From contig CAMPDV010001740.1 in NCBI GenBank assembly GCA_946699065.1, positions 1 to 64,000 of the forward strand: a stretch of DNA of 64,000 bases, in the 5' to 3' direction. The notes beneath the pieces were generated by a model. It saw only the letters and a program-made list of their open reading frames with translations, had not been told where the DNA came from and searched no databases. Each line of letters begins with the position of its first letter. The first letter of the stretch is position 1. Positions 1 to 61,742 of this stretch are shown here, piece after piece. The stretch is from Loxodes magnus (Eukaryota > Ciliophora > Karyorelictea > Loxodida > Loxodidae). A program made the translations under genes and the position numbers.

Positions 1-3000
1 GGCTATATCCAGTGATTCAGAGTTCATCGTATCGGGAAGTCATGATAAGACGGTGAGACTATGGGACGTCAAGACAGGTACCTGTAAGACCATGAGTGGT
101 CACACACATTATGTATATGCTGTGGCTATATCCAGTGATTCAGAGTTCTTCGTATCGGGAAGTCATGATAAGACGGTGAGACTATGGGACGTCAAGACAG
201 GTACCTGTAAGACCATGAGTGGTCACACTAGTTATGTATCATCTGTGGCTATATCCAGTGATTCAGAGTTCATCGTATCGGGAAGTTATGATTAGACGGT
301 GAGACTATGGGACGTCAAGACAGGTACCTGTAAGACCATGAGTGGTCACACTAGTTATGTATATGCTGTGGCTATATCCAGTGATTCAGAGTTCATCGTA
401 TCGGGAAGTTATGATAAGACGGTGAGACTATGGGACGTCAAGACAGGTACCTGTAAGACCATGAGTGGTCACACTAGTTATGTATATGCTGTGGCTATAT
501 CCAGTGATTCAGAGTTCATCGTATCGGGAAGTCATGATAAGACGGTGAGACTATGGGACGTCAAGACAGGTACCTGTAAGACCATGAGTGGTCACACTAG
601 TTATGTATCATCTGTGGCTATATCCAGTGATTCAGAGTTCATCGTATCGGGAGGTTATTATTAGACGGTGAGACTATGGGACGTCAAGACAGGTACCTGT
701 AAGACCATGAGTGGTCACACTAGTTATGTATCATCTGTGGCTATATCCAGTGATTCAGAGTTCATCGTATCGGGAAGTTATGATTAGACGGTGAGACTAT
801 GGGACGTCAAGACAGGTACCTGTAAGACCATGAGTGGTCACACTAGTTATGTATATGCTGTGGCTATATCCAGTGATTCAGAGTTCATCGTATCGGGAAG
901 TTATGATAAGACGGTGAGACTATGGGACGTCAAGACAGGTACCTGTAAGACCATGAGTGGTCACACTAGTTATGTATATGCTGTGGCTATATCCAGTGAT
1001 TCAGAGTTCATCGTATCGGGAAGTTATGATAAGACGGTGAGACTATGGGACGTCAAAACAGGTACCTGTAAGACCATGAGTGGTCACACTAGTTCTGTAT
1101 ATGCTGTGGCTATATCCAGTGATTAAGAGTTCATCGTATCGGGAAGTCATGATAAGACGGTGAGACTATGGGACGTCAAGACAGGTACCTGTAAGACCAT
1201 GAGTGGTCACACACATTATGTATCATCTGTGGCTATATCCAGTGATTCAGAGTTCATCGTATCGGGAAGTTATGATAGGACGGTGAGACTATGGGACGTC
1301 AAGACAGGTACCTGTAAGACCATGAGTGGTCACACTAGTTATGTATATGCTGTGGCTATATCCAGTGATTCAGAGTTCATCGTATCGGGAAGTGTAGATA
1401 AGACGGTGAGACTATGGGACGTCAAGACAGGTACCTGTAAGACCATGAGTGGTCACACTAGTTATGTATCATCTGTGGCTATATCCAGTGATTCAGAGTT
1501 CATCGTATCGGGAAGTCATGATAAGACGGTGAGACTATGAGACGTCAAGACAGGTACCTGTAAGACCATGAGTGGTCACACTAGTTATGTATCATCTGTG
1601 GCTATATCCAGTGATTCAGAGTTCATCGTATCGTGAAGTCATGATTAGACGGTGAGACTATGGGACGTCAAGACAGGTACCTGTAAGACCATGAGTGGTC
1701 ACACACATTATGTATCATCTGTGGCTATATCCAGTGATTCAGAGTTCATCGTATCGGGAAGTCATGATAAGACGGTGAGACTATGAGACGTCAAGACAGG
1801 TACCTGTAAGACCATGAGTGGTCACACACATTATGTATATGCTGTGGCTATATCCAGTGATTCAGAGTTCATCGTATCGGGAAGTCATGATAAGACGGTG
1901 AGACTATGGGACGTCAAGACAGGTACCTGTAAGACCATGAGTGGTCACACTAGTTATGTATCATCTGTGGCTATATCCAGTGATTCAGAGTTCATCGTAT
2001 CGGGAAGTTATGATTAGACGGTGAGACTATGGGACGTCAAGACAGGTACCTGTAAGACCATGAGTGGTCACACACATTATGTATCATCTGTGGCTATATC
2101 CAGTGATTCAGAGTTCATCGTATCGGGAAGTCATGATAAGACGGTGAGACTATGAGACGTCAAGACAGGTACCTGTAAGACCATGAGTGGTCACACTAGT
2201 TATGTATATGCTGTGGCTATATCCAGTGATTCAGAGTTCATCGTATCGTGAAGTCATGATTAGACGGTGAGACTATGGGACGTCAAGACAGGTACCTGTA
2301 AGACCATGAGTGGTCACACTAGTTATGTATCATCTGTGGCTATATCCAGTGATTAAGAGTTCATCGTATCGGGAAGTTATGATAAGACGGTGAGACTATG
2401 GGACGTCAAGACAGGTACCTGTAAGACCATGAGTGGTCACACTAGTTATGTATCATCTGTGGCTATTTTCGGTGATTCAGAGTTCATCGTATCGGGAAGT
2501 CATGATAAGACGGTGAGACTATGGGACGTCAAGACAGGTACCTGTAAGACCATGAGTGGTCACACTAGTTATGTATATGCTGTGGCTATATCCAGTGATT
2601 CAGAGTTCATCGTATCGGGAAGTTATGATAAGACGGTGAGACTATGGGACGTCAAGACAGGTACCTGTAAGACCATGAGTGGTCACACACATTATGTATC
2701 ATCTGTGGCTATATCCAGTGATTCAGAGTTCATCGTATCGGGAAGTTATGATAAGACGGTGAGACTATGGGACGTCAAGACAGGTACCTGTAAGACCATG
2801 AGTGGTCACACACATTATGTATATGCTGTGGCTATATCCAGTGATTCAGAGTTCATCGTATCGGGAAGTCATGATTAGACGGTGAGACTATGGGACGTCA
2901 AGACAGGTACCTGTAAGACCATGAGTGGTCACACTAGTTATGTATCATCTGTGGCTATATCCAGTGATTCAGAGTTCATCGTATCGGGAAGTTATGATAA

Positions 3001-4600
3001 GACGGTGAGACTATGGGACGTCAAGACAGGTACCTGTAAGACCATGAGTGGTCACACTAGTTATGTATATGCTGTGGCTATATCCAGTGATTCAGAGTTC
3101 ATCGTATCGGGAAGTTATGATAAGACGGTGAGACTATGGGACGTCAAGACAGGTACCTGTAAGACCATGAGTGGTCACACACATTATGTATCATCTGTGG
3201 CTATATCCAGTGATTCAGAGTTCATCGTATCGGGAAGTCATGATAAGACGGTGAGACTATGGGACGTCAAGACAGGTACCTGTAAGACCATGAGTGGTCA
3301 CACTAGTTATGTATATGCTGTGGCTATATCCAGTGATTAAGAGTTCATCGTATCGGGAAGTTATGATAAGACGGTGAGACTATGGGACGTCAAGACAGGT
3401 ACCTGTAAGACCATGAGTGGTCACACTAGTTATGTATATGCTGTGGCTATATCCAGTGATTCAGAGTTCATCGTATCGGGAAGTTATGATAAGACGGTGA
3501 GACTATGGGACGTCAAGACAGGTACCTGTAAGACCATGAGTGGTCACACTAGTTATGTATCATCTGTGGCTATATCCAGTGATTCAGAGTTCATCGTATC
3601 GGGAAGTTATTATTAGACGGTGAGACTATGGGACGTCAAGACAGGTACCTGTAAGACCATGAGTGGTCACACTAGTTATGTATCATCTGTGGCTATATCC
3701 AGTGATTCAGAGTTCATCGTATCGGGAAGTTATGATAAGACGGTGAGACTATGGGACGTCAAGACAGGTACCTGTAAGACCATGAGTGGTCACACTAGTT
3801 ATGTATATGCTGTGGCTATATCCAGTGATTAAGAGTTCATCGTATCGGGAAGTTATGATAAGACGGTGAGACTATGGGACGTCAAGACAGGTACCTGTAA
3901 GACCATGAGTGGTCACACTAGTTATGTATCATCTGTGGCTATATCCAGTGATTCAGAGTTCATCGTATCGGGAAGTTATTATTAGACGGTGAGACTATGG
4001 GACGTCAAGACAGGTACCTGTAAGACCATGAGTGGTCACACTAGTTATGTATCATCTGTGGCTATATCCAGTGATTCAGAGTTCATCGTATCGGGAAGTT
4101 ATGATAAGACGGTGAGACTATGGGACGTCAAGACAGGTACCTGTAAGACCATGAGTGGTCACACTAGTTATGTATATGCTGTGGCTATATCCAGTGATTA
4201 AGAGTTCATCGTATCGGGAAGTCATGATAAGACGGTGAGACTATGAGACGTCAAGACAGGTACCTGTAAGACCATGAGTGGTCACACACATTATGTATAT
4301 GCTGTGGCTATATCCAGTGATTCAGAGTTCATCGTATCGTGAAGTCATGATTAGACGGTGAGACTATGGGACGTCAAGACAGGTACCTGTAAGACCATGA
4401 GTGGTCACACACATTATGTATATGCTGTGGCTATATCCAGTGATTCAGAGTTCATCGTATCGTGAAGTCATGATTAGACGGTGAGACTATGGGACGTCAA
4501 GACAGGTACCTGTAAGACCATGAGTGGTCACACTAGTTATGTATATGCTGTGGCTATATCCAGTGATTCAGAGTTCATCGTATCGGGAAGTCATGATTAG

Positions 4601-60935: not shown

Positions 60936-61550
60936 ACGGTGAGACTATGGGACGTCAAGACAGGTACCTGTAAGACCATGAGTGGTCACACACATTATGT
61001 ATATGCTGTGGCTATATCCAGTGATTCAGAGTTCATCGTATCGTGAAATCATGATTAGACGGTGAGACTATGGGACGTCAAGACAGGTACCTGTAAGACC
61101 ATGAGTGGTCACACACATTATGTATATGCTGTGGCTATATCCAGTGATTCAGAGTTCATCGTATCGTGAAGTCATGATTAGACGGTGAGACTATGGGACG
61201 TCAAGACAGGTACCTGTAAGACCATGAGTGGTCACACTAGTTATGTATATGCTGTGGCTATATCCAGTGATTAAGAGTTCATCGTATCGGGAAGTTATGA
61301 TAAGACGGTGAGACTATGGGACGTCAAGACAGGTACCTGTAAGACCATGAGTGGTCACACTAGTGTTGTATCATCTGTGGCTATATCCAGTGATTCAGAG
61401 TTCATCGTATCGGGAAGTTATGATAAGACGGTGAGACTATGGGACGTCAAGACAGGTACCTGTAAGACCATGAGTGGTCACACACATTATGTATCATCTG
61501 TGGCTATATCCAGTGATTCAGAGTTCTTCGTATCGGGAAGTTATGATTAG

Positions 61551-61742
61551 ACGGTGAGACTATGGGACGTCAAGACAGGTACCTGTAAGACCATGAGTGG
61601 TCACACTAGTTATGTATATGCTGTGGCTATATCCAGTGATTCAGAGTTCATCGTATCGGGAAAAGAAGAAAGAATTTCAGATTTAGAATTACTAAAACTA
61701 GATAAAGAGAAGTTATAAGAAATTAGAAAAGTGAGGAAGTAA
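61551..61742 (+). pseudogene. last WD40 unit joined in frame to a charged C-terminal tail
   Basis: The final unit (SY/YA) is intact to Gly37 (61659-61661), after which the frame continues as K then EERISDLELLKLDKEKL, TAA at 61716-61718, EIRKVRK and TAA at 61740-61742. Two of the tail copies downstream have TAC (Tyr) where this one has the first TAA, so the tail was probably once one piece of about 26 residues after Gly37. Its Leu/Ile spacing with many Lys, Glu and Asp suggests an amphipathic helix. The open stretch from the GTG at 61554 to the first TAA is 54 codons. The natural junction between propeller and tail shows that this is the 3' end of the WD40 gene rather than an arbitrary array edge. 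Confidence 0.75.

Follow-up and report, generated by a model that had tools for sequence, protein, structure and literature searches.

Is a tandem array that encodes hundreds of near-identical WD40 repeats a single gene, and why does its variation gather at a handful of codons? Both questions are raised by the window analyzed here, the first 64 kb (64,000 nucleotides) of the 92-kb contig C1740 (CAMPDV010001740.1) of the freshwater ciliate Loxodes magnus, whose assembly comprises 705,730,643 bases in 7,843 contigs. The WD40-coding array (1-61661, plus strand, as are all window features given below) consists of 500 complete 123-bp (41-codon) units with partial ends, and base 1 of the contig already lies inside it. 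This layout was defined by anchor spacing, Tandem Repeats Finder (TRF; span 1-61662) and codon tables; the 501 anchors were 123 bp apart in 499 gaps and 124 bp apart in one. The reading that we consider likely is that the array is a satellite of WD40 modules, descended from and recently exchanging units with a family of sensor-like genes, in which the propeller rim has been diversified by selection in the genes and the rest homogenized by recombination.

The array can be read only with the genetic code of its host. Under code table 11, its best frame contained 424 stops, which are readable as sense because L. magnus uses code table 27, where TAA and TAG encode Gln and UGA is Trp or a context-dependent stop (passages of PMC11441545). 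Tubulin genes of the assembly were likewise rich in in-frame TAA, TAG and TGA; in four alpha-tubulin loci, TAA or TAG occupied sites at which a paralogue uses a standard codon for Gln, and each locus ended in TGA. The conserved blade-6 Trp was encoded by TGA in six of the seven WD40 genes described below. On one contig (C64:618992-934095), 21 tubulin matches of similar scores were found on both strands, and the three that were read were alpha-tubulin. Translated in this way, 11 window units matched PF00400 (6.9e-128), and seven consecutive units were modeled by AlphaFold as a propeller with a predicted local distance difference test score (pLDDT) of 94.9, whose best match in the Protein Data Bank (PDB) was 5yzv (template modeling score 0.93-0.94).

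Variable codons of the WD40 unit

Codons are numbered here from the unit start CTA TGG, so that unit codon n-3 is codon n of the preliminary description of this DNA. That description had claimed a concentration of variation at its codons 20, 21, 23, 24 and 39 (unit codons 17, 18, 20, 21 and 36). Their amino-acid heterozygosity was 0.58, 0.46, 0.54, 0.50 and 0.43, respectively, and together they held 63% of the total, which bears the claim out; at earlier codons 1-18, described as near-invariant, the value never rose above 0.058. Three more variable codons, formerly set aside as stops, were found at unit codons 28, 34 and 38 (earlier 31, 37 and 41). Codon 28 was TCA in 378 units and TAA in 122 (Ser/Gln, heterozygosity 0.37), codon 34 was GGA in 425 and TGA in 75 (Gly/Trp, 0.26), and codon 38 was AAG in 293 and TAG in 196 (Lys/Gln, 0.50). 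Once the code is read correctly, the TAG at codon 38 supplies the fourth ligand-facing site; sequence, translation and code evidence place one such Gln codon at 293..295, in the second complete unit (182-304). Six hot codons (17, 18, 20, 21, 36 and 38) then carried 76% of all amino-acid heterozygosity. The codon palettes listed earlier were correct and incomplete, as earlier codons 21, 23 and 39 are also TGA or TAA in a few units and 31, 37 and 41 had been omitted.

The positions of these codons were compared with those reported for other WD40 proteins. In fungal HNWD units, positive selection acts on codons 7, 9, 25 and 27, two pairs each around a conserved site (passages of PMC1805685 and PMC2873952), which were equated with unit codons 18, 20, 36 and 38 through the conserved Val (V19) and Asp (D37) of the WD40 unit. 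Codons 18, 20 and 36 coincide with hotspots R1-2, R1 and D-1, which were derived from crystal structures of WD40 complexes (passages of PMC3419727). All four HNWD-equivalent codons ranked within the six most variable of the window and accounted for 49% of its amino-acid heterozygosity, a share equalled by 17 of the 101,270 four-codon sets (exact permutation p=1.7e-4); when the pattern was slid circularly, the true register alone, out of 41, reached it. Across nine arrays including the window (1,736 units of 123 bp), p ranged from 2e-5 to 8.3e-4. In the first complete unit (59-181), sequence, codon tables and published position definitions place hot codons 17-18 (earlier 20-21; 18 being R1-2 and HNWD codon 7) at 107..112, hot codons 20-21 (earlier 23-24; 20 being R1 and HNWD codon 9) at 116..121, and hot codons 36 and 38 around Asp37 (earlier 39 and 41; 36 being D-1, the pair HNWD codons 25 and 27) at 164..172.

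Codons were located in the structure by DSSP of the seven-unit model and published position rules. By DSSP, the d-a loop contains codons 17-18, the first part of strand a codons 20-21, and the b-c turn codons 36 and 38. The top-face location of codons 18, 20, 36 and 38 is taken from passages of PMC1805685, PMC2873952 and PMC3419727. The earlier ligand-facing placement of five codons was thus upheld for 21, 23 and 39, which are the three hotspots, and narrowed for 20 and 24 (unit 17 and 21), which are just neighbors of face positions, no source having been found that places them on the face. A per-codon tabulation of synonymous and nonsynonymous (S and N) variation had also been proposed; it gave 47 N:2 S at the hot codons of the nine arrays (p=3e-4), and it showed that earlier codons 31 and 37, in the a-b turn and strand b by DSSP, vary as well. 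A concentration of variation at ligand-facing positions is supported by these results. That neutral mutation and random amplification merely happened to hit these codons is highly improbable, as the same hot codons recur in all nine arrays and in genes on other contigs, codons are swapped at several bases, and N changes so greatly outnumber S changes; in favor of chance stand unit codons 28 and 34, where single variants have reached 15-24% of units without facing the ligand.

Satellite character of the array

Exact searches of the genome with two patterns, each taken from another part of the unit, gave 393,037 and 362,709 matches, and reversed controls gave none. At 123 bp each, 393,037 units amount to 48.3 Mb or 6.9% of the assembly, which is a count in an assembly: in passages of PMC11441545, the authors think that the size difference between their micronuclear and macronuclear assemblies is due to misassembly of such repeats, and they report a macronuclear assembly of 706 Mbp with 231 Mbp of tandem repeats. 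All probes fell in array, namely the 11 placed from 20 to 420 kb on the 428-kb contig C242, five along C933 and four along C837. The window array itself is broken by a 124-bp unit (12974..13097; anchor spacing and codon tables), whose one-base insertion shifts the frame for everything downstream, and it ends in mid-unit, where an unrelated 88-bp satellite (61660..63987; TRF, downstream contig pieces and junction letters) takes over and fills the remainder of the contig. The period of the latter is not divisible by three. The window is therefore not one gene; it is satellite DNA, present as long head-to-tail arrays at many loci and in high copy number.

Outside the six hot codons, distinct variants of the nine arrays were 77 N:23 S against 75.7% N expected from their own spectrum. 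The ratios were 53:16 and 43:11 when two or three copies of a variant were required (76% N expected), and 24 N:9 S in the window array alone. The array itself is probably not translated, and the N excess at its hot codons is taken as inherited from genes. The single coding array that the preliminary description had implied gives way to satellite DNA whose codons outside the hot set look neutral, and separate genes with seven blades are the likely sensors. A giant translated gene of more than 500 WD40 repeats is accordingly very improbable. Under table 27 the frame is open save for one 1-bp insertion in 500 units, and seven units fold well in prediction; openness is weak evidence, since nearly everything is open in table 27. 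Against such a gene stand the neutral N:S ratio, the frame shift at 12,974-13,097, the absence of a gene cap at the 3' end of the array, the array found at all 11 probes along C242, and the seven blades of every gene read.

Random pairs of window units were 95.2% identical in DNA, and longer-period order was weak, with a best lag of 31 units (95.9% versus 95.2% at random). On C242, equal-scoring matches at 277228, 284485 and 291742 recur every 7,257 bp (59 units), and thus reveal a longer repeat period and recent block amplification. On C3261 (L024-L028) the array runs forward and then in reverse, a palindromic layout possibly due to an artefact of assembly or of the reads, and on C837 (L036, L057-L060) 26 units of other lengths lie beside 68 of 123 bp, with a one-base deletion and loss of frame in several probes. 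D37Y was considered as a sign of array decay and rejected: it occurred in 223 of the 1,736 units, but the arrays had been chosen with a query containing a D37Y unit, and genome-wide there were 2,523 matches against 393,037 with Asp. Matches of the D37Y unit pattern lay on both strands of C96 and C240.

These features leave a realistic place for a selfish or passive satellite, in which stretches of WD40 exon were captured from genes and amplified by unequal crossing-over with no feedback, so that hot-codon diversity is a record of the founders. It would account for the neutral N:S ratio outside the hot codons, the 59-unit repeats of C242, the numerous units not 123 bp long in C837, C3261 and C5598 (26, 23 and 18), and the mid-unit end of the window array in another satellite.

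Seven-bladed genes and shared units

Where the unit occurred in short runs on long contigs, the runs belonged to genes. Seven were read, three of them (L064, L066 and L067) including the N-terminus, and the WD40 domains of the other four were taken from the list of matches to a C-terminal cap that is not part of the satellite unit. In all three, a head was followed by pentapeptide repeats (PF00805) and then by one WD40 propeller. The head of L066 is a protein kinase (PF07714, 6e-58), and those of L064 and L067 are candidate RING-like zinc fingers, with Pfam scores of 14.4 and 15.5 bits under a cut-off of 25.2. All seven genes had seven blades (pattern counts 7, 7, 7, 7, 7, 7 and 6, the seventh blade of L072 having been missed by the pattern and seen on reading). 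The L072 model had an overall pLDDT of 82.1; most of the propeller exceeded 90, with lower values for its last blade and for the N-terminal part. The cap had at least 150 matches in the genome (E<=7.7e-27, 65-90% identity), among which equal-scoring pairs may be duplicate contigs. Two further candidates were dropped, L065 as a three-unit fragment and L068 (C4:2223501-2226500) as kinase and divergent WD40 sequence split across frames, directly upstream of a long array toward the contig end.

No HET domain was present in Pfam matches up to E=1 for the three N-terminal gene pieces, and no NACHT stood beside WD40, as the head was kinase or RING-like in each of the three genes read with N-terminus. 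A NACHT-WD40 route was also tried and set aside: three of the 31 NACHT matches in the genome, inspected by eye over 4-5.5 kb each (nearly all downstream), showed no WD40, and 28 were unread. Two of the NACHT-type proteins, L061 (C104) and L062 (C3), resembled each other, with apparent coiled-coil tails and no WD40 in view, and perhaps form a separate ciliate NACHT family.

Across the seven genes, third-position identity at codons for the same residue was 0.62 in the pentapeptide part and 0.67 in blade 1, rose to 0.92, 0.91 and 0.96 in blades 2, 3 and 4, and was 0.80, 0.83 and 0.77 in blades 5, 6 and 7. The six hot residues of blades 2-4 agreed in just 22-23% of gene comparisons. The 27 gene units of blades 2-5, one indel unit having been dropped, carried 27 different six-residue combinations, of which three were found among the 212 combinations of the nine arrays. 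A complete 123-bp unit of L064, hot codons included, had 18 exact occurrences: one is the gene's own, one is on C19, and the other 16 are distributed over six further contigs, most neighboring copies there being separated by multiples of 123 bp, as in arrays. One unit of L072 had one further exact copy, on C7271. Judged by this identity, the sharing of exact units across contigs shows that genes and arrays recently exchanged units. Outside the hot codons (codons 10-41), the 27 gene units gave 23 N:16 S against 76% N expected (p=0.02), a hint of purifying selection that has no counterpart in the arrays.

Against the passive satellite, the exact units common to genes and other contigs, and the much higher silent-site identity of the central gene blades than of the parts around them, speak for recent exchange and not for one old capture. 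Repeated gene-to-array flow combined with exchange between genes would still fit the shared units and the homogenized blades, and we regard such a satellite as quite possible.

Genes and arrays tend to be oriented toward the ends of their contigs. Among the cap matches listed, 32 lay on C1-C242 (contigs being numbered roughly by length); of the 18 within 150 kb of the contig start, 17 were on the minus strand, and of the remaining 14, 12 were on the plus strand. Where the distance of plus-strand matches to the far end was known, it was 182 kb (C3), 24 kb (C110) and 5 kb (C14). Among the at least 150 cap matches listed, 66 started within 30 kb of base 1, 56 of these on the minus strand. Array places of the D37Y pattern, among the first 100 of 2,523 and on one-strand contigs up to C230 (two both-strand contigs excluded), were minus at the low end in nine of nine cases and plus beyond 200 kb in five of six. 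L066 is an exception: it lies some 65 kb short of the far end of C2 and is directed inward. The trend fits subtelomeres, or assemblies that break in satellites downstream of these genes. One unit match (C3:1484379) lay in the middle of a 2.46-Mb contig, away from its ends.

Proposed exchange and comparison with known systems

In the reading that we prefer, a satellite exchanging units with a gene family, the genes look like sensors, with a signaling head, a spacer, and a propeller whose rim is formed by a small number of interchangeable blades set between more constant caps. New binding surfaces would be favored by selection on the rim codons of the central blades in the genes. Recombination among near-identical units, between genes or between gene and array, would keep the cores alike and reshuffle rim variants into new combinations, and the satellite would either be left by this recombination as a by-product or serve it as a store of donor units. 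We infer that exchange occurs by conversion or unequal crossing-over and that recognition, whether of varied ligands or of self and nonself, is the driver; nonself, prey or a partner is our guess, by analogy with HNWD, at the ligand class.

Several points weigh against this reading. Unit codons 28 and 34 are highly variable in the window though not ligand-facing, and they carry about 16% of heterozygosity, so that a real share of the variation lies off the ligand side; it is taken as drift within the window array, because codon 34 was Gly in all 27 gene units and codon 28 showed only silent changes there. The choice of the six codons drew in part on this window itself, the four HNWD-equivalent codons alone having been fixed beforehand by the literature. 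Being related to one another and selected as the top matches of a single window stretch, the nine arrays are neither independent nor random, and 73 units of other lengths (among them those of C837, C3261 and C5598 mentioned above, and one in the window) were dropped from their comparison. The genes read number just seven, three with N-terminus. Purifying selection rests on 27 gene units, blades 2-4 alone giving 14 N:8 S against 79% N expected, and the tetrad residue His15 was lost in two of 27 gene units versus 17 of 1,736 array units, opposite to what purifying selection predicts. Exact unit sharing gives exchange without its direction.

A further-reaching idea, tentative and rather doubtful to us, is that some 7% of the genome of this ciliate serves as a permanent store of WD40 sensor blades. 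Arrays located next to the kinase- and RING-type genes, or farther out, would donate blades by gene conversion, and the result would be a combinatorial, self-renewing recognition repertoire, an immune or allorecognition archive.

A full-text search of the open-licence literature found no paper joining Loxodes with WD40 or karyorelict with WD40, although others may exist, and among the matches listed in a wider search there was nothing on WD40 satellites. Comparison was therefore made with systems that share single features. PkwA of Thermomonospora provides 5yzv, the best structural match of both models (window units and L072); the PDB names it a probable kinase, its solved part is the WD40 domain, and it is bacterial. 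Trypanosome variant surface glycoprotein (VSG) genes and chicken immunoglobulin pseudogenes have many variant cassettes stored separately from the expressed gene. They differ in that donation from array to gene is a proposal in Loxodes, where exact sharing has been found without direction. Highly repetitive WD40 proteins (2YMU) match in fold and in high repeat identity inside one protein (passages of PMC5587647), but have 14 repeats forming two propellers, and those passages mention no satellite bank.

The nearest ciliate precedent found is the family of Tetrahymena leucine-rich-repeat (LRR) genes with 90-bp exons, a repeat-module family of nearly 50,000 modules whose youngest members are concentrated in subtelomeric and pericentromeric regions (passages of PMC6564038). 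Its leucine-rich repeats lie in separate exons, whereas the Loxodes arrays are uninterrupted WD40 satellites with rim hypervariability. The present family gives an origin for part of the tandem repeats reported in L. magnus (passages of PMC11441545) and, if our reading is true, connects a major satellite with a gene family whose function can be tested.

The preliminary description had likened the units to the fungal HET-E/HNWD family, which controls nonself recognition and cell death. Its allorecognition genes in Podospora anserina (HNWD/NWD; het-d, het-e and het-r) have near-identical WD40 repeats, concerted evolution, and diverse codon pairs around two conserved sites on the interaction face (passages of PMC1805685 and PMC2873952). 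The likeness holds for repeat identity, internal conservation being above 80% in HNWD and 95.2% among window units, and for the flanking codon pairs, which are diverse here at codons 18, 20, 36 and 38. It does not extend to the heads, which are HET and NACHT in HNWD and kinase or RING-like with pentapeptide repeats in the three Loxodes genes. Repeat number also differs, as HNWD alleles have 10-11 repeats in the same passages, whereas the Loxodes genes have seven blades and the genome-wide unit matches far exceed the needs of such genes, and the hosts are a fungus and a ciliate. The Loxodes family works like HNWD in the repeat features tested, yet it is not placed in the HNWD family because neither HET nor NACHT was found alongside its WD40 domains (28 of the 31 NACHT places unread). 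If the proposed exchange is true, the HNWD principle, concerted evolution combined with rim diversification of WD40 sensors, extends from fungal NOD-like receptors to ciliates with different signaling heads.

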